From Maricaulis parjimensis (lineage in GTDB: Bacteria > Pseudomonadota > Alphaproteobacteria > Caulobacterales > Maricaulaceae): DNA of 64,000 nucleotides. Position numbers and translations under genes: made by a program. The stretch covers positions 375,094 to 439,093 of the forward strand of contig NZ_JADOTT010000001.1 of assembly GCF_016817355.1 (NCBI RefSeq), read 5' to 3'. This document shows positions 1-8,035 of the stretch, piece after piece (within the stretch, counting starts at the first letter, position 1; every line of letters begins with the position of its first letter). The notes under the pieces were generated by a model. It did not search any database. It was not told where the DNA came from and saw nothing but the letters and a program-made list of their open reading frames with translations.

Positions 1-398
1 TAGACCAGGAAGAGACGTGGCTCCATGCCCTTGATCTGGCCACCGACGATCAGCGTGGCGCTGAACGGGCTTTCCGAGACCGGACCCTCACCGGCCTGGT
101 CGCGGACGCATTCCTTCAGCGTATTGCCGATAATCGTGGCGACCTGGAACATGGTCGGCGCCTCGAGGAAGGTCGGATTGCGTTCGTCGGGGATTTTCGA
201 CCGCTCTTCCAGCAGATTGATGACCGCCTGGGTGGTCGCCAGATTGCCGGCCGTCATGATGGTGATGACGCGTTCGCCGGGCACGGACCAGGTGAAGAGC
301 TTGCGGAATTTGGAGACATTGTCGACGCCCGCATTGGTGCGGGTGTCCGACATGAAGATCAGACCCGTATTGAGGCGAAGACCAACGCAATAGGTCAC
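1..398 (-). CDS. Anbu-type proteasome-like peptidase (3' end outside window)
   Basis: N-terminal 132 codons of an HslV/proteasome-beta-fold peptidase of the Anbu (proteasome-type protease) group; the rest lies beyond base 1. I chose the GTG at 396-398, preceded by GGAG about 11 bases upstream. It gives the family start MTYCVGLRL with Thr2, which after Met removal would be the N-terminal nucleophile. MSDTRTNAGVDN follows, as is usual in the family. An ATG ten bases upstream opens a different, meaningless frame. It is the last gene of an operon with transglutaminase, alpha-E and ATP-grasp genes, the set that commonly accompanies Anbu. Substrate is unknown. Family assignment is strong; function is inference. 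Confidence 0.88.
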   Translation of the reverse strand, partial: MTYCVGLRLNTGLIFMSDTRTNAGVDNVSKFRKLFTWSVPGERVITIMTAGNLATTQAVINLLEERSKIPDERNPTFLEAPTMFQVATIIGNTLKECVRDQAGEGPVSESPFSATLIVGGQIKGMEPRLFLV

Positions 399-431
399 AG
401 GGAATCATTCTCCAAAAACGCCGATTCAGCG

Positions 432-1232
432 TTACTGCTGGACCTGCAGGGTGACAAGCAGGGTTTCCTCGCCGCCACCATAGGTCACGCCGGATATGGG
501 GGCGGCTTCAGCGTAATCCAGACCGGTCGCCACGCGGACATAGCGCTCGTCCGGTGAAATCCCGTTGGACGGGTCAAACCCAACCCAGCCAAGGCTTTCC
601 ACATGCACCTCGGCCCAGGCATGACTGGCTTCCTGGTCGATCAGGCCGTCAATCATGAGATAGCCACTGACATAGCGGGCGGGCAGGCCCATCTGACGGG
701 CGATGCCAATTAAAATATGAGCATGGTCCTGGCACACACCATGACCGGCGGCGGCGGCCTCTTCACCGGACGTGGCGACATGGGTTGCGCCGATATCATA
801 GCGGATCTTCTCCGTGATCAGGCGGGAGAGATCATGCATGCGCGCCAGGGCATTCCCGCTCTCGCCCTCGACGGATTTGGCCAGCTTGCGCATGGCCGGA
901 CCCGGCCGGGTGCGATCGGTCTGGCGCGTGTAATACCAGAGCGGTGCCGGCCCTTCGTGCGGACCCGACATGCCGGACGTGTCCTTCGTGTCCACGGTGC
1001 CGCGGCAGGAGATGATCAATTCCCGACTGCCTTGATCGACCCGGACCAGATCGACCGCATTGCCGTGCTCGTCGGGAAAGCGGGCCTGGAGGCTTCCGCC
1101 CTCGATGGAGACCTCCCAGTCGGACACGCTCTGGGTCCCGCTGCAGACCGGGCGCAGGCGCACCTGCTGCAGCCCGTAGGGAATGGGCGTCTCGAATGTG
1201 TAGCGGGTCTGGTGGGCGATGGTCAGCTGCAT
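432..1232 (-). CDS. Transglutaminase-like cysteine protease family protein
   Basis: 266 aa with an N-terminal bacterial transglutaminase-associated beta domain (residues 1-80; start MQLTIAHQTRYTF) and a C-terminal transglutaminase core. The catalytic triad is visible: Cys167 in HGVCQDHAH, His204 in SHAWAEVH and Asp220 in GFDPSNG. No signal peptide, so cytoplasmic. It lies 6 bases downstream of the alpha-E gene and 33 bases upstream of the Anbu-type peptidase, in one transcription unit. Such proteins usually act as peptidases or amidases rather than true crosslinkers; here it probably handles a peptide or isopeptide made or marked by the ATP-grasp partner (inference). Confidence 0.9.
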   Translation of the reverse strand: MQLTIAHQTRYTFETPIPYGLQQVRLRPVCSGTQSVSDWEVSIEGGSLQARFPDEHGNAVDLVRVDQGSRELIISCRGTVDTKDTSGMSGPHEGPAPLWYYTRQTDRTRPGPAMRKLAKSVEGESGNALARMHDLSRLITEKIRYDIGATHVATSGEEAAAAGHGVCQDHAHILIGIARQMGLPARYVSGYLMIDGLIDQEASHAWAEVHVESLGWVGFDPSNGISPDERYVRVATGLDYAEAAPISGVTYGGGEETLLVTLQVQQ

Positions 1233-1238
1233 CGTCTG

Positions 1239-2180
1239 TTACTCGTAGAAGCGGTAATCGGTCTCGATCTGCCGGCCCAGCGCATTGTTGCGGGACAGGA
1301 AGTCGGTGATGAATTCGTGCAGGCCGGCGGCGAAGATGTCGTCGATGGACAGCCGGTTGAGGCGGGCCTGACCCTCCTCGGCCATGTCGTGGCAGGGCTT
1401 GCGCATGTGATACTCGCGTTCCAGCGAGGCCAGATTGTCGACGATCTCGCAGCAGCAATAATAGAGCGAGCGCGGCATGTGCCGGTCCAGGATCAGGAAG
1501 TCCGCGATCTCGGAGGGATCATTGTCGCCGCCATGCAGCCAGGTATAGGAGCGGTCGGCGGAGACCGAGCGCAGCACGGTCTCCCACTGTACATTGTCCA
1601 GCTCGGACCCGACATAGGAGGTGGCCGGCAGGAGGACGTAGTATTTCACGTCCAGCAGGCGCGCCGTATTGTCCGCGCGCTCCACGAAGGTTCCCAGGCG
1701 CGCATAGGCAAAGATGTCATCCTGGAGCATGGTGCCGTAGAGCTGGCCGCGCACGAGGGCGCTTTGCTGGCGGATGGCGGTCATGATGGCGGGCAATTCG
1801 GCGATCTTCACCGGACGGCGCAGGAGTTCCCGCAGCGTCATCCAGCCCTCATTCACCGCCTCCCAGACATCGCGGGTCAGCGAGGTGCGGACCTGGCGCG
1901 CATTGCGCCGGGCATTCTCGAACAGGGTGAGCACGCTGGCCGGATTGTCGGCACTGCGCATCATGAAATCGATCACCGGGGCGGTTTCGAAACTGTCGTG
2001 CACTTCCAGGAAGGCCTGACGGCATCCGGCCGTGGTGATGATGGATTCCCATTCGCCCTCGGCGCTGACCGAGCGGGTCAGGGCCATGCGGAAACCGGCC
2101 TCGACGAGGCGGGCGGTGTTTTCGGCGCGCTCCAGCTGGCGGAACATCCAGTAGAGGCCGCAGGCATGCCGTCCCAGCAT
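1239..2180 (-). CDS. Alpha-E domain protein
   Basis: 313 aa, all alpha-helical, with the hallmark N-terminal motif LGRHACGLYWMFRQLERAEN found in alpha-E (DUF403) proteins. Its ATG begins one base after the stop of the upstream ATP-grasp gene (TGATATG), so the two are probably translationally coupled. Alpha-E proteins almost always travel with type-2 circularly permuted ATP-grasp enzymes and transglutaminases. Comparative genomics links them to synthesis or modification of a peptide, but no reaction is established. No membrane segment or signal peptide. Confidence 0.9.
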   Translation of the reverse strand: MLGRHACGLYWMFRQLERAENTARLVEAGFRMALTRSVSAEGEWESIITTAGCRQAFLEVHDSFETAPVIDFMMRSADNPASVLTLFENARRNARQVRTSLTRDVWEAVNEGWMTLRELLRRPVKIAELPAIMTAIRQQSALVRGQLYGTMLQDDIFAYARLGTFVERADNTARLLDVKYYVLLPATSYVGSELDNVQWETVLRSVSADRSYTWLHGGDNDPSEIADFLILDRHMPRSLYYCCCEIVDNLASLEREYHMRKPCHDMAEEGQARLNRLSIDDIFAAGLHEFITDFLSRNNALGRQIETDYRFYE

Positions 2181-2181
2181 A

Positions 2182-3597
2182 TCAGTCCTCCAGGATCCAG
2201 GTATCTTTGGTGCCGCCGCCTTGGGAGGAATTGACCACCAGGGAGCCCTTCTTCATCGCCACACGGGTCAGCCCGCCCGGCGTGATATTGATCCGGTCCG
2301 GCGAGACCAGGACGAAGGGGCGCAAATCGACATGGCGGGGCGACAGGCCGGACTTGGTCAGAACCGGAACGGTGGAGAGCGCCAGGGTCGGCTGGGCGAT
2401 GTAATTGGCCGGCTTGGCCTCGAGCTTTTTACGGAAGGCGGCGATCTCCTTCTTGCTCGCGGCCGGTCCGACCAGCATGCCGTAGCCGCCCGATCCGTGG
2501 ACCTCTTTCACGACAAGCTCATCGAGATGTTCAAGCACGTATTTCAGGGCATCCGCCTCGGCACAGCGCCAGGTCGGGACGTTTTTGAGGATGGGTGGTT
2601 TGCCGGTGTAGAATTCGATGATCTCCGGCATGTAGGAATAGATCGCCTTGTCATCGGCCACGCCCGTGCCCGGCGCATTGGCGATCGTGATCCCGCCAGC
2701 CCGGTAGACGTCCATGATGCCGGGCACGCCCAGCACGCTGTCGGCGCGGAAATTGAGCGGATCGAGATAGTCATCATCCACGCGGCGGTAGAGGACATCG
2801 ATCGGGGTGAAGCCCTGTGTGGTGCGCATGGCAATACGGCCATCCACGACACGCAAATCATGCCCCTCCACCAGGGCCGCGCCCATCTGGTCGGCCAGGA
2901 AGGCGTGTTCGAAATAGGCGGAGTTGTGGATGCCCGGCGTCAGCACCGCGATGACCGGTCGTGCACCCCGGCTGGCCGGAGGCGCACTGCGGGCCAGGGC
3001 GCGGCGCAGATTGACCGGATAATCCCCCACGGACTGAACCGGAACCCGGGAGAAGAGCTCCGGGAACATGCGCAGCATCGTTTCCCGGTTCTCGATCATG
3101 TAGGAGACGCCGGAGGGCGTGCGGGCATTGTCTTCCAGAACGTAGAAATCATTCGGTCCGGTGCGGACCAGATCCGTGCCGACGATATGGGTGTAAACGC
3201 CGCCGGGGGGAGAAACCCCGATCATCTTGGCCAGGAAGGCGTCATTATTGGCGATCAGGTTGAGCGGCAGGCGGCCCGCCTTGATGATTTCCTGCTTGTG
3301 ATAAATGTCGTGAAGGAAGGCGTTGATGGCGCGTACACGCTGTTCGATACCGCGTTCCAGCCGCGCCCATTCGCGAGCCGAGATCACCCGCGGCACGATG
3401 TCGAAAGGGATCAGGCGCTCATCGGCATCGCGGGCCCCATAGACATTGAAGGTGATGCCGGTGCGCCGGAAAAATGTCTCCGCCTCGCGGGATTTGCGCG
3501 CGAGTTCGGCCGGCGTGTAATCGGACAGCCAGCGCGTATATTCCTCATACGGCTCGCGCGGGGCGCCCGCTTCATCATGCATTTCGTTGAACGCCAC
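2182..3597 (-). CDS. Circularly permuted type-2 ATP-grasp protein
   Basis: 471 aa, first gene of the operon. The family signature LEDNARTPSGVSYMIENR lies near residue 165, and a glycine-rich nucleotide loop VVKEVHGSGGYGML lies near residue 365. These identify the permuted ATP-grasp family (DUF404/DUF407 type) whose members form amide bonds using ATP. The start is GTG at 3595-3597 with AAGGG upstream; an in-frame ATG five codons later is possible. In context it would be the ligase partner of the alpha-E protein, with the protease and Anbu peptidase as hydrolytic partners. Substrates are unknown. Confidence 0.9.
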   Translation of the reverse strand: MAFNEMHDEAGAPREPYEEYTRWLSDYTPAELARKSREAETFFRRTGITFNVYGARDADERLIPFDIVPRVISAREWARLERGIEQRVRAINAFLHDIYHKQEIIKAGRLPLNLIANNDAFLAKMIGVSPPGGVYTHIVGTDLVRTGPNDFYVLEDNARTPSGVSYMIENRETMLRMFPELFSRVPVQSVGDYPVNLRRALARSAPPASRGARPVIAVLTPGIHNSAYFEHAFLADQMGAALVEGHDLRVVDGRIAMRTTQGFTPIDVLYRRVDDDYLDPLNFRADSVLGVPGIMDVYRAGGITIANAPGTGVADDKAIYSYMPEIIEFYTGKPPILKNVPTWRCAEADALKYVLEHLDELVVKEVHGSGGYGMLVGPAASKKEIAAFRKKLEAKPANYIAQPTLALSTVPVLTKSGLSPRHVDLRPFVLVSPDRINITPGGLTRVAMKKGSLVVNSSQGGGTKDTWILED

Positions 3598-3840: not shown

Positions 3841-3868
3841 AAGAGAAAAGCGGATTGCCCGCAATCCG
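3841..3868 (-). terminator. Probable rho-independent terminator of dnaA-dnaN-recF side
   Basis: Inverted repeat CGGATTGC / GCAATCCG (3851-3858 and 3861-3868) followed on the minus strand by CTTTTCTCTT. It lies 30 bases past the recF stop. The central loop is very short, so the innermost pairs must open. Confidence 0.5.
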
Positions 3869-3897
3869 GGCAAGTCGCGGAATAACTGCCTGCAGGT

Positions 3898-5070
3898 CTA
3901 GCGGCGGGTGAGCGAGGCGGCGTCGATCTCGAAATACTGGATTGCGTCGCCAAAGGGTTCGAACAGGACGCGTTCCACACCAGTCAGCCAAGCCTGGGAA
4001 CCCGTGGCCAGGATTTCCCGGGCCAGGCCTTCGCGCCGCGGCGCGTCGAGATGCGCACAGGCTTCGTCAAACAGGAGGAGCGGGGCGAGACCGCCCTGCT
4101 GGCCCAGCGCCCGGGCCTGGGCGAGGGCGAGGGTCAGGATGAGGGCTTTCTGCTCACCGGTGGAGCAATCGGAGGCGGGCTGGTCCTTGGCGCGATGCCG
4201 GGCGACCAGTTCGGTCCGGTGCGGTCCCTGGGTCAGGGTGCGGCCGACAATGGCGTCCCGGCCGCGGCCCTCGCGCAGGGCGGCGGCGAAATGATCTTCC
4301 GCCTGACCGGCATCCGACCCGCCGGCCAGATCCGCCTCGACGGCCCCGTCCAGAGCCAGATCGGCTTGCGGGAACACGCCTTCCGGCCGCGCATCGATCT
4401 CGCCCTGAAGGCGGATAAGCGCATCCAGCCGGGCAGCCGCCATGGCCACGCCATGTCCGGCCATTTCCTGCTCGAGCGCGTCCAGCCAAGCCGGATCAGC
4501 CCGGCCCTCATCGAGCAGGCGCTGGCGGCGGGTGCGGACTTTCTCATAGGCCGTTGCCGCTTCGGCATGAGCCGGATCGGCGGCATAGACGAGACGGTCG
4601 AAGAAGCGCAACCGGTCGGCGCGCGGGCCGGCAAAAAGGCGGTCCTGGGCCGGGGTCAGCCAGATCATCGGCACCAGGCGTGCCAGCTCGCCCTGCGGGG
4701 CCGGGTCGCCGTCAATCCGGGTCTGGCGCCGTCCGGACTCGCCGGACCCCACGCCGAGGCGCATCAGACCGTCCCGCGTTTCCACTTCGGCAAAGACCGC
4801 CCAGCTCGCGGCCTGGTCGCCATCCGACTTGCGGGCCACGCCATCAGCCCCGGCGGAGCGCAGACCCCGGCCCGGCGCCAGGAAGGAGAGGGCTTCGAGC
4901 AGATTGGTCTTGCCGGCCCCATTGGCCCCGAACAGGGCGACCGGGCCGGGCTCCAGCTCCAGATCGAGACTGGCATAGCTGCGAAAATCCGTGAGCCGCA
5001 AACGACGAACCGCCGCCGGTGGCACCGGCGGCGGCTGGTCAGTTCCGTATGCGTCGTCGGCCTGCGTCAC
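3898..5070 (-). CDS. recF: DNA replication and repair protein RecF
   Basis: 390 aa SMC-like ATPase that loads RecA at gaps with RecOR. Walker A GANGAGKT is at residues 48-55 after the family start RLRLTDFRSY. The ABC signature STGEQKAL and the Walker B region LLLFDEACAHLDAPRR are near the C-terminus. The start is GTG at 5068-5070, overlapping the dnaN stop by four bases (GTGA), so translation is probably coupled. The N-terminus carries a Pro-rich extension of about 20 residues before the conserved core. The order dnaA-dnaN-recF is the ancestral bacterial arrangement. Confidence 0.97.
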   Translation of the reverse strand: MTQADDAYGTDQPPPVPPAAVRRLRLTDFRSYASLDLELEPGPVALFGANGAGKTNLLEALSFLAPGRGLRSAGADGVARKSDGDQAASWAVFAEVETRDGLMRLGVGSGESGRRQTRIDGDPAPQGELARLVPMIWLTPAQDRLFAGPRADRLRFFDRLVYAADPAHAEAATAYEKVRTRRQRLLDEGRADPAWLDALEQEMAGHGVAMAAARLDALIRLQGEIDARPEGVFPQADLALDGAVEADLAGGSDAGQAEDHFAAALREGRGRDAIVGRTLTQGPHRTELVARHRAKDQPASDCSTGEQKALILTLALAQARALGQQGGLAPLLLFDEACAHLDAPRREGLAREILATGSQAWLTGVERVLFEPFGDAIQYFEIDAASLTRR

Positions 5071-6185
5071 ACGCGGAGCGGCATCAGCACATAAAGCGCA
5101 TCGGCATCACCACTATCGGTGACCAGGGCCGGAGAGGCGGCGTCAGCAAAATGGAAGCGGGCCTCATCGCCCTCGATCTGGGAGGCGACATCCAGCATGT
5201 AGCGGGCATTGAAGCCGATGGAGAAACCGTCTTCGGAATAGGAGACGGCGAGTTCTTCCTCGGCCTGACCGCTTTCCGGATTGTTCACGGCCAGGGTCAG
5301 CGTGTCCTCACCCAGGGTGAGTTTCACCGAGCGCGATTTCTCAACCGAGATGGTGGCAACACGATCGACGGCTTCGGCGAAACGCTTGTTCTCGACCGAC
5401 ATGACCTTGGAATTGCCGCGCGGGATCACGCGCTCATAGTCCGGGAAGGCCCCGTCGATGAGTTTCGAGGTCAGCACGGCGCGGCCAAGGCGGAAGCGGA
5501 TCTTGCCTTCGGAGACGGAGACTTCGACATCCTCATCGGCGTCTTCCAGGAGACGGCGCACTTCCTGGACGGTCTTGCGCGGCACGATCACGGCCGGCAT
5601 GCCATCGGCACCGTCCGGCAGGTCGATCTCGGCCAGGGCCAGGCGGACACCGTCCGTGGCAACGGCTCGCAGCGTCTTGCGGCCATCCTGGTCGGCGGCG
5701 TGCAGATGGATGCCGTTGAGATAATAGCGCGTCTCTTCGGTGGAGATCGCAAAACGCGTCTTGTCGATCAGACGCGCCAGCTCCTTGGCCGGCATCTGGA
5801 AGCGGTGCTCCAGATCCTCGGTCGGCATGACCGGGAAATCACCCGGCGGCAGGGAGGGCAGGTTGAAGTTGGACCGGCCCGCCCGAAGGGTGAGGCGCGG
5901 ATCGCCACCATTCATCTCCAGCGTGACATCGGCTCCATCGGGAAGTTTCCGCGTGATGTCGTAGAGCGTATGGGCCGGCGCCGTGATCAGGCCTTCGCCC
6001 TCGCAGCTGGCATTGGTGGTTTCCAGGATCTCGATATCCAGATCGGTCGCGGCAAAGCTGGCACCGTCCGGACCGGCCGAGATCAGCACATTGGACAGGA
6101 TCGGAATGGTATTGCGCTTCTCCACAACGGCCTGAACATGGCCAAGAGCCTTGAGGAGGGTGGCGCGCTCGATCGTCAGCTTCAT
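5067..6185 (-). CDS. dnaN: DNA polymerase III beta sliding clamp
   Basis: 372 aa, the normal length for a beta clamp. It starts MKLTIERATLLKALGHVQ and carries the conserved TIPILSNVLI. It ends LYVLMPLRV, typical of the protein-binding pocket end. It forms the dimeric ring that tethers Pol III to DNA. It lies 172 bases downstream of dnaA, which is enough space for its own promoter, and overlaps recF by four bases. Confidence 0.98.
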   Translation of the reverse strand: MKLTIERATLLKALGHVQAVVEKRNTIPILSNVLISAGPDGASFAATDLDIEILETTNASCEGEGLITAPAHTLYDITRKLPDGADVTLEMNGGDPRLTLRAGRSNFNLPSLPPGDFPVMPTEDLEHRFQMPAKELARLIDKTRFAISTEETRYYLNGIHLHAADQDGRKTLRAVATDGVRLALAEIDLPDGADGMPAVIVPRKTVQEVRRLLEDADEDVEVSVSEGKIRFRLGRAVLTSKLIDGAFPDYERVIPRGNSKVMSVENKRFAEAVDRVATISVEKSRSVKLTLGEDTLTLAVNNPESGQAEEELAVSYSEDGFSIGFNARYMLDVASQIEGDEARFHFADAASPALVTDSGDADALYVLMPLRV

Positions 6186-6357
6186 GTCTCGCGTTCCGCT
6201 TTCAACGTATTTGACATCGGCGTCTTGAGGGACGGCACGGCGGGCGAAATACCCGCGTGCAAATCAGGGTGGACCAAAGAGGATACATGAAAACGCGCCT
6301 TCGCAAGAGATTTCTCCAGCGTCAGCGCGTTCTCGTTAACCGTATTCGCGAACCCGG

Positions 6358-7830
6358 TCAGCCCTGGAGTTCGCGGGTCAGCCGGTCGATATCATCCGAG
6401 ATCGGGTCTCCGGACTCCATCATGGAGGTGACCTTGTTGACCGCATGGATGACCGTGGAATGGTCCCGCCCGCCAAAGCGGCGGCCGATATCCGGCAGGG
6501 ATCGCGTGGTCATCGTCTTGGACAGATACATGGCCACATGACGCGGACGCACGACGCTCTGGGTCCGGCGCTTGGAGCAGATATCCGCCGGCGTGACACC
6601 GAAATGCGCGGCCACGGCCTTCTGGATCTCGTCTACGGTCAGGCGTTTCTCCGAGCTCAGCGAGAGCTCGCGCAGCGCGGTCGATACGGCTTCCATCGTC
6701 ACCGGCAGGCCCAGCAGGGCTGTCCGGCAGATGACATTGTTCAGCACGCCTTCCAGCTCGCGCGGGCTGGTCGTGATGCGCGCAGCCAGGAAGTCGCGTA
6801 CCGGCTCCGGCACGTCGAGCACCGGATAGTGACACTTGGCCTGGGCGATCTTGCAATCGAGGATCTGGCGGCGCAGGTCCAGGTCCGGCTTGCCGAGCGG
6901 GCAGGACAGACCACCGGTCAGAAGGGAACGCAGACGCTCATCCGCGACCGGCAGCTCCGACGGCGGCCGGTGCGAGGCCAGAACGACCTGCTTGTTCTCC
7001 GCCACAAGGGCCGCGACCGTGTTGAGGAATTCATCCTCGGTCTTGGGCTTGCCGGCGATGAAATGGACATCATCGATCAGCAGAACATCGACGCTGCGCA
7101 CCTGTTCCTTGAAGGAGATCGTGTCGCGGGCCCGCATGGCGGACACGAAACCGGACAGGAATTCCTCAGCCGTCAGATAGAGCGCCTTGCGCGGACGGGA
7201 GGTGTGCTCAAACGCGGAGGCCACCGCATGCATGAGGTGCGTCTTGCCGACGCCGTAATCGCCGTAGAAGAAAACCGGATTGAAAGGCGGCGTCTGGGCA
7301 CCCACGACGGTGCGTGCAGCGGCGGCGGCCACTTCATTGGCCGGGCCGACACGGAAACTGTCAAAGGTGAAGCGCGTCTCGCCAAGAGCCTGGAGATCGG
7401 CCGCAGAGTCCGATGAAGACGGCGCGCGCTCGACGGTCAGCGGCGCAGACGGCGCTTCCGCGACACGGGCAGGCGCGCGGGACCGCGAGGCCGGGACCGC
7501 AACTTTCGGCTGAGTTTCCTGGTCGCCTTCAGCGAGCAGGTGAATAGCCCGGTGGGTCGTGTCCAGTTCGGCCCAAATGGCACGAATTCTGGCACCCCAA
7601 TGGTCTTCCACCCAATCGCGATTGAACGTGCTCGGAGCGACGATGATAATCGCGCCGGTCTCGGACACACGCACACGCAGCCGTGCAATCTCCTGGGAGT
7701 AAATGGCCGGACCACACTCTTCCCTGAGATGTGCCCGCACCTGCCGCCAAGTTGCGGAAATTCCCCCTGAAACTTCGACTTCGCTACCTGCGGTCTTGGC
7801 TTCTGCCACAGCCAATTTGTTATACGCCAT
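6358..7830 (-). CDS. dnaA: Chromosomal replication initiator DnaA
   Basis: 490 aa from the ATG at 7828-7830. Domain I starts at ATWRQVRAHL, as usual. The frame stays open another 62 codons upstream, but that part is Arg- and Trp-rich without family likeness, so I reject it. Domain III carries Walker A GDYGVGKTH and Walker B VLLIDDVHFI. Domain IV carries the DnaA-box recognition motif GGRDHSTVIHAVNKV. It binds ATP and DnaA boxes to open the origin. The upstream region has three GANTC sites and one DnaA-box-like site, suggesting methylation-linked and autoregulatory control (inference). Confidence 0.98.
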   Translation of the reverse strand: MAYNKLAVAEAKTAGSEVEVSGGISATWRQVRAHLREECGPAIYSQEIARLRVRVSETGAIIIVAPSTFNRDWVEDHWGARIRAIWAELDTTHRAIHLLAEGDQETQPKVAVPASRSRAPARVAEAPSAPLTVERAPSSSDSAADLQALGETRFTFDSFRVGPANEVAAAAARTVVGAQTPPFNPVFFYGDYGVGKTHLMHAVASAFEHTSRPRKALYLTAEEFLSGFVSAMRARDTISFKEQVRSVDVLLIDDVHFIAGKPKTEDEFLNTVAALVAENKQVVLASHRPPSELPVADERLRSLLTGGLSCPLGKPDLDLRRQILDCKIAQAKCHYPVLDVPEPVRDFLAARITTSPRELEGVLNNVICRTALLGLPVTMEAVSTALRELSLSSEKRLTVDEIQKAVAAHFGVTPADICSKRRTQSVVRPRHVAMYLSKTMTTRSLPDIGRRFGGRDHSTVIHAVNKVTSMMESGDPISDDIDRLTRELQG

Positions 7831-7942
7831 CGTTCGCCACACTTTTCTTGTCCCCACGCACTCAGCGCAAGCCATGTGTTTGTAATTTCGGCCAAATTTT
7901 CCCCTGCCCGACGCCGCAGAAATGGCCGTCAGACCCGGAATG

Positions 7943-7951
7943 TTATCCGCA
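7943..7951 (+). promoter_or_regulatory. DnaA-box-like site TTATCCGCA
   Basis: One mismatch from the consensus TTATCCACA. It lies 112 bases upstream of the dnaA start, a position where autoregulatory DnaA boxes are common. It is a single site and could be chance. Confidence 0.4.
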
Positions 7952-8009
7952 TGGGGATGATCGCCCTCAGTGGTCCAAAGGTTACGCCTTCCCCATTTTC
8001 GGTCAACCG

Positions 8010-8035
8010 GATTCAACGCTTCGAATCAGAGATTC
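8010..8035. promoter_or_regulatory. Cluster of three GANTC (CcrM) methylation sites
   Basis: GATTC at 8010-8014, GAATC at 8023-8027 and GATTC at 8031-8035, about 180-205 bases upstream of dnaA. In Caulobacter, CcrM methylation of GANTC sites in the dnaA promoter region affects dnaA transcription. The cluster suggests the same cell-cycle control here. Confidence 0.55.

Follow-up and report, generated by a model that had tools for sequence, protein, structure and literature searches.

What do an ATP-grasp ligase, an alpha-E protein, a transglutaminase-like protein (TG) and the proteasome-like peptidase Anbu accomplish together, and when would a bacterium call on them? The question is raised by four genes at the beginning of the 64,000-nucleotide stretch of Maricaulis parjimensis DNA analysed here (hereafter, the window; contig NZ_JADOTT010000001.1, positions 375,094 to 439,093). 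Such a gene set, the Anbu operon, was reportedly described by Valas and Bourne in 2008 and by Iyer et al. in 2009, accounts that we know through citing papers. The operon in the window is a typical copy of it, matching it in its four families, in their order and in the Thr, Asp and Lys residues of Anbu (PMC5666114, PMC6376114; here and below, papers are cited for the passages available to us); the initial annotation had described the set as reported before and its substrate as without assignment, which agrees with the same two publications. Nothing essential differs in the window copy, which stands beside recF and for which nitrogen control is not evident. We tentatively read the operon as making and removing an amide-linked modification, possibly under the control of nitrogen limitation via NtrC in many Pseudomonadota.

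Family assignment was unambiguous for all four genes. In Pfam, the ATP-grasp protein matched CP_ATPgrasp_2 (E = 2.9e-164), the alpha-E protein matched Alpha-E (E = 2.4e-84), and TG matched both Transglut_core (E = 5.5e-21) and Bact_transglu_N (E = 3.4e-16). The Anbu fragment inside the window gave no Pfam match by itself; the complete protein of 243 residues, encoded at C1:374760-375491 of the same genome with 334 bases outside the window, matched Proteasome (E = 5.7e-8). Compared with solved Anbu chains (PDB 5loy, 5nyj), it reached E-values down to 1.4e-86, to 5loy, and the alignment to 5nyj covered residues 1-241 of the 243. The closest solved homologue of the ATP-grasp protein was 3n6x (E = 4.1e-191), annotated as a putative glutathionylspermidine synthase, and the best solved relative of TG, 3isr, covered part of the protein. 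All four genes are intact and follow each other, from ATP-grasp through alpha-E and TG to Anbu, with gaps of 1, 6 and 33 bases; the positions, identities, order and common strand given in the initial annotation were all borne out. These gaps, together with a terminator-like hairpin after recF, suggest a single transcript. The catalytic residues that had been called intact (Thr2 of Anbu and Cys167/His204/Asp220 of TG) could be read directly in the window copy, as C, H and D at positions 167, 204 and 220 of TG and as T, D and K at positions 2, 18 and 33 of Anbu.

Co-occurrence, order and fusion of the operon genes

Presence of Anbu and alpha-E was counted across the same 398 Pseudomonadota genomes (E <= 1e-15). 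Anbu was detected in 144 genomes and alpha-E in 212, with 141 carrying both; three genomes, which belong to a single genus, had Anbu but no alpha-E, and 71 had alpha-E but no Anbu (Fisher p = 9e-49, a value that ignores the relatedness of genomes). Anbu is thus rarely found without alpha-E while alpha-E is often found without Anbu, which fits Anbu acting on the product of the others. Such a one-way pattern is expected of an eraser that needs its writer, the writer being independent of the eraser; it would equally suit an accessory maturation factor.

Gene order was compared at 101 Anbu loci: 96 regions taken from the 144 carriers, in most cases one for each genus but two for genome G281, plus four from close relatives and the copy in the window. 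The canonical contiguous one-strand order ATP-grasp/alpha-E/TG/Anbu was present at 68 of these loci, ATP-grasp, alpha-E and Anbu with no TG between them at five, and other layouts at ten. At four loci, ATP-grasp and alpha-E are fused in one open frame of 866-934 residues, and Pfam found both domains in each (alpha-E E = 6e-61 to 2e-56). Among the best 80 loci of the matches listed for a named alpha-E set, 58 had all four genes, 20 had the trio of ATP-grasp, alpha-E and TG without Anbu, one had no TG (L200) and one was cut by its contig (L148); whole-genome search of 18 of the 20 trio genomes left 17 without any Anbu match. From the locus layouts and the trio genomes without Anbu, the constant core of the system is ATP-grasp plus alpha-E. 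In a few loci (L077, L079, L091 and, in part, L078) Anbu lies between a very large TG-type gene and a fused ATP-grasp/alpha-E gene, and the locus holds a second ATP-grasp/alpha-E pair, making a double system.

No fifth operon gene was found among frames of at least 90 residues at 100 loci, where families from a crude gene caller spanned at most 10 loci, or among frames of at least 70 residues at 80 loci, where families spanned at most 19 loci with a median distance of ~6 kb from alpha-E. Neighbour clustering, also with a crude gene caller, revealed no widely conserved transporter, exporter or small-molecule enzyme beside the operon, and no precursor peptide gene emerged when 4033 small frames in the flanks of 158 operons were clustered: the biggest groups had members at 10 loci, each group from a single lineage.

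Residue conservation was assessed in 161 Anbu, 152 TG, 162 alpha-E and 159 ATP-grasp sequences. In Anbu, T2 was kept in 160/161 sequences, and D18 and K33 in 161/161 each; in TG, the counts were 149/152 for C167, 152/152 for H204 and 151/152 for D220. Two of the three TG sequences without Cys167 come from Burkholderia loci (L181, L187) where a large TG-type protein is encoded next door and whose genomes gave no Anbu match.

The alpha-E protein is a duplicated helical unit. Its AlphaFold2 model (59 sequences) was all-helical with a repeated helix pattern, at a mean predicted local distance difference test (pLDDT) score of 90.5 and a predicted template modelling (pTM) score of 0.89. HHalign matched the two halves with a probability of 98.9 and a score of 105 over 136 columns when a diverse alignment was used, and with a probability of 97.3 and a score of 72 over 83 columns in a narrower one, against a maximum score of 17.9 in 40 column shuffles and 10.6 for a reversed half; a conserved ER pair occurs once in each half. 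The sequence had no match in the PDB at E <= 1, and a Foldseek search of the PDB with the model returned nothing at E <= 0.001 (best E = 0.72).

Within the genus of the window's own species, the four genes occur together as one block or not at all. Alpha-E was detected in three of 19 genomes (the window's own counted), and in a fourth genome (G012) a contig stops after the beginning of the ATP-grasp gene. In the three genomes with readable flanks, recF and lysE enclose the whole block. For nine further genomes of the genus, one of them G012, the flanking DNA was also retrieved; the other eight (L125-L129, L131-L133) keep recF and lysE without the block, the two being directly adjacent in some. 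The three copies formed one clade in a quick tree of 37 rows, with a Shimodaira-Hasegawa-like approximate likelihood ratio test (SH-aLRT) value of 98 (L148, being without ATP-grasp, was omitted); a single entry into the genus followed by losses is therefore likely, and separate entries, which we also considered, are unsupported by this grouping.

The one-way dependence, the ATP-grasp/alpha-E fusions and the presence or absence of the genes as a block lend indirect support to a cycle of making and removing a modification. The building and removing of a peptide tag, as proposed in the initial annotation, exists in the literature as a hypothesis and gains the same indirect support here; its substrate was not found.

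Upstream palindrome and links to nitrogen limitation

The DNA before the ATP-grasp gene was searched for spaced dyads, without bias towards any preset motif, in an alphaproteobacterial set and a set of other loci. TGC-N11-GCA ranked second in each; its spacing is that of the NtrC consensus. Within 300 bases upstream, it was present at 23 of 53 alphaproteobacterial loci (shuffle mean 7.0, maximum 14 in 50 shuffles) and at 14 of 28 other loci (shuffle mean 4.4, maximum 9 in 50 shuffles), giving 37/81 when pooled against a shuffle mean of 11.4, while other dyad spacings from 4 to 18 reached at most 10 and 8 loci, respectively. These 81 loci had sufficient upstream DNA out of 83 with ATP-grasp scores of 600-1000 bits, and all upstream regions depend on script-chosen start codons. 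From the 80 named loci, 74 entered the palindrome count and 75 the scoring of sigma-54 sites; the palindrome occurred at 33 of the 74 (shuffle mean 11.1, maximum 20 in 100 shuffles; other spacings, 7 to 15), and it was also seen at 10 of 20 trio-only loci. The two collections overlap by exact DNA at one locus (L070 = L150), and because related species occur in both, the palindrome loci are not independent events. As judged from these counts, an NtrC-type palindrome precedes the operon in many relatives, with NtrC, we infer, as its binder. In 16 genomes, TGC-N11-GCA was likewise the commonest spacing before P-II genes (11/30 loci), a weak control since other spacings reached 9 of the 30; it was run without shuffles, and L237 (placed off the gene) and L251 (a distant relative) were kept among its rows.

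A strict alphaproteobacterial version of the palindrome fell at nine places in 10 whole genomes, namely five operons, one dusB-like upstream region and three other sites; we rejected these matches as stand-alone proof of a regulon, being too few and too mixed in location. A palindrome of the type TGCCYAA/TTRGGCA lies at position 1501 of two loci from two genera (L219, L222), between an SDR-type gene and uvrC (gene names by eye), which is not an obvious nitrogen gene setting.

Strong sigma-54 sites were found at 5/53 alphaproteobacterial loci (0.21 expected) and 8/28 other loci (0.08 expected), or 13/81 overall against 0.3, but at 1/75 loci of the named set. This split is understandable: the NtrC proteins of Caulobacter and Rhodobacter do not have the loop that contacts sigma-54, and their reported activity is at sigma-70 promoters (PMC10274813).

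Published data point the same way for relatives of the operon, a nitrogen-limitation link that was absent from the initial annotation and is added here. In Pseudomonas putida, PP_2685-2688 rise under nitrogen limitation, and NtrB/NtrC has been named as their regulator, as it has for urea transport genes (PMC7801951); the link appears again in PMC3325844, and both ends of the operon were up on nitrate (PMC8050072). A Burkholderia cenocepacia cluster of ATP-grasp, alpha-E, TG and large TG genes depends on NtrC and sigma-54 (PMC5491218), a survey of the sigma-54 regulon includes COG3484 (PMC12316311), and the abundances of the operon's domains in metagenomes cluster with those of urea-metabolism domains (PMC3597751). 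On the biochemical side, a Yersinia ATP-grasp protein was seen to liberate phosphate from ATP (PMC6376114). The literature that we searched gave neither a substrate nor a proven function for the Anbu operon.

Competing accounts of the operon's role

Under the reading that we tentatively prefer, the ATP-grasp protein with alpha-E would consume ATP to form an amide or isopeptide bond, the TG-like protein and Anbu would transfer or cut this bond, the modification might be carried by a protein, a peptide or a small amine, and nitrogen limitation appears to switch the operon on through NtrC in many Pseudomonadota. A bolder version seems doubtful to us: the operon would belong to the core of the nitrogen-starvation response of Pseudomonadota, as an NtrC-controlled cycle where ATP-grasp/alpha-E conjugates an amide tag and Anbu erases it; this tagging system would differ from both pupylation and RimK glutamylation and would show the proteasome fold in an ancient role.

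Known systems offer partial parallels. RimK/RimB and RloABC also combine an ATP-grasp ligase with a peptidase, RloABC adding a transglutaminase-like protein, and loss of the ligase or of RloB rescues loss of the peptidases, genetics that supply the logic for suppression-type reasoning on the Anbu operon (PMC12239564). The peptidases of those systems are aspartic retropepsins, and the transglutaminase RloB, a membrane protein, is inactive (PMC12239564); Anbu, by contrast, is of the Ntn type, and the triad of the window's TG is intact. No retropepsin-like aspartic peptidase is encoded with the ligase in the window, where the peptidase gene belongs to Pfam Proteasome. The NtrC-controlled B. cenocepacia cluster has ATP-grasp, alpha-E and TG in common with the window operon and differs in the large TG protein that occupies the place of Anbu (PMC5491218); in L181 and L187, two further loci from Burkholderia, the catalytic Cys is missing from the small TG. 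Connectase, a proteasome-like protein ligase, illustrates that members of this family can have work other than proteolysis; it is archaeal and monomeric (PMC8665760).

Several observations weigh against the proposed nitrogen-controlled modification cycle. In P. putida, the PP_2685 promoter alone was nitrogen-agnostic (PMC8050072), PP_2685 (Anbu) rose 1.1 to 4.8-fold against 11 to 37-fold for the other three genes, and the rise was seemingly kept in an rpoN mutant, going by an inferred column order (PMC7801951); as it persists in that presumed mutant column, sigma-54 would not be strictly needed there. The operon was non-essential without stress and unchanged in various conditions, nitrogen-limited P. 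putida excepted (PMC5666114), and the available passages of PMC6376114 report that neither Anbu peptidase activity nor complexes of the operon proteins were detected. In our own comparison, Anbu lay away from the other operon genes at 18 of the 101 loci, and the orphan Anbu of genus g136 (locus L089; genomes G132, G335, G422) has no alpha-E or ATP-grasp match genome-wide. The named set had a strong sigma-54 site at 1/75 loci (0.56 expected), and the cut-off of 13.5 was fixed after the first scores were known. By eye, the three strict-palindrome sites elsewhere were not at recognisable nitrogen genes, and a reversed-pattern control matched in 4/10 genomes. As for the window itself, the only TGC-N11-GCA between recF and the ATP-grasp gene (3856-3872, 275 bases upstream of the operon) coincides with the terminator-like hairpin and is ambiguous between a terminator and an NtrC-type site; G011, G015 and G019 have no TGC-N11-GCA upstream of the operon, and the window genome has no strong sigma-54 promoter there, the best score being 11/15 against the cut-off. 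It is this lack of a strong sigma-54 site, with the palindrome inside a hairpin, that leaves nitrogen control not evident for the window copy. The window genome does have a sigma-54 gene, and a TGC-N11-GCA site upstream of its P-II gene.

Anbu might instead serve starving cells as a protease, breaking down proteins so that their nitrogen can be reused, with the ligase trio only loosely related. Nitrogen-limitation control in relatives would suit such a role, as would the detached Anbu copies and the one genus that has Anbu but neither alpha-E nor ATP-grasp; on the other hand, alpha-E accompanies Anbu in 141 of its 144 genomes, more than a free-standing protease needs, and the published assays were without peptidase activity (PMC6376114), so that we consider this account unlikely. 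Nitrogen salvage or storage in a small molecule, where an amine or amino acid would be amidated by the ligase and released again by TG and Anbu as amidases, draws on the joint rise of the P. putida operon with urea transport genes under the same assigned regulator (PMC7801951), on the metagenome clustering with urea-metabolism domains (PMC3597751) and on the annotation of 3n6x. It sits less well with the neighbourhoods, in which no transporter or small-molecule enzyme is widely conserved, and with the proteasome-like nature of Anbu, which makes a peptide bond the default expectation; we regard it as rather improbable. A graspetide-like system, with a ribosomally produced peptide modified by the ligase, is disfavoured and very improbable indeed: ATP-grasp ligases do act in such clusters, yet the small frames around the 158 operons fell into no larger clusters than those given above, and no exporter is widely conserved beside them.

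The system itself is known; what we chiefly add is that many relatives carry the NtrC-type palindrome, that Anbu depends on alpha-E in one direction, that ATP-grasp and alpha-E occur fused and that alpha-E is internally duplicated. Anbu is a close proteasome relative for which the literature that we searched gives no substrate. If the nitrogen-starvation role held across the phylum and Anbu acted on the ligase product, the growth condition and the mutants for finding that product would be defined.

Features and genomic setting of the window copy

Table 1 Features of the Anbu operon and its upstream flank in the window (positions counted from the first letter of the window).
Feature	Position	Strand	Remarks
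ATP-grasp ligase, circularly permuted, COG2308 type	2182..3597	minus	first gene, 471 residues, GTG start
Alpha-E protein (DUF403/PF04168)	1239..2180	minus	313 residues, two homologous halves
Bacterial transglutaminase-like protein (TG)	432..1232	minus	266 residues, Cys167/His204/Asp220
Anbu proteasome-like peptidase	1..398	minus	N-terminal 132 of 243 residues; window edge cuts gene
Terminator-like hairpin	3851..3868	minus	30 bases past recF; overlaps palindrome 3856-3872
recF	3898..5070	minus	upstream neighbour; name from sequence

Upstream of the operon, recF is followed by dnaN and dnaA (3898-8016), and the far flank, outside the window, carries a LysE-family gene; recF, dnaN, dnaA and, beyond the operon, gyrB were named from sequence alone rather than by family search. 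With recF, dnaN and dnaA directly upstream, the operon may lie near the replication origin. A sigma-54-like site that visual inspection of the window had picked out was dropped, as its region scored no better than its shuffles, and L253, first taken as the NtrC of the window genome, is a doubtful candidate, since it carries GAFTGA and falls below the NCBI cut-off. In the tree, the operon proteins of L146, from a record titled Candidatus Sulfopaludibacter (Acidobacteriota), cluster tightly with those of L147, a Hyphomonadaceae metagenome-assembled genome, a grouping that suggests mis-binning or recent transfer.

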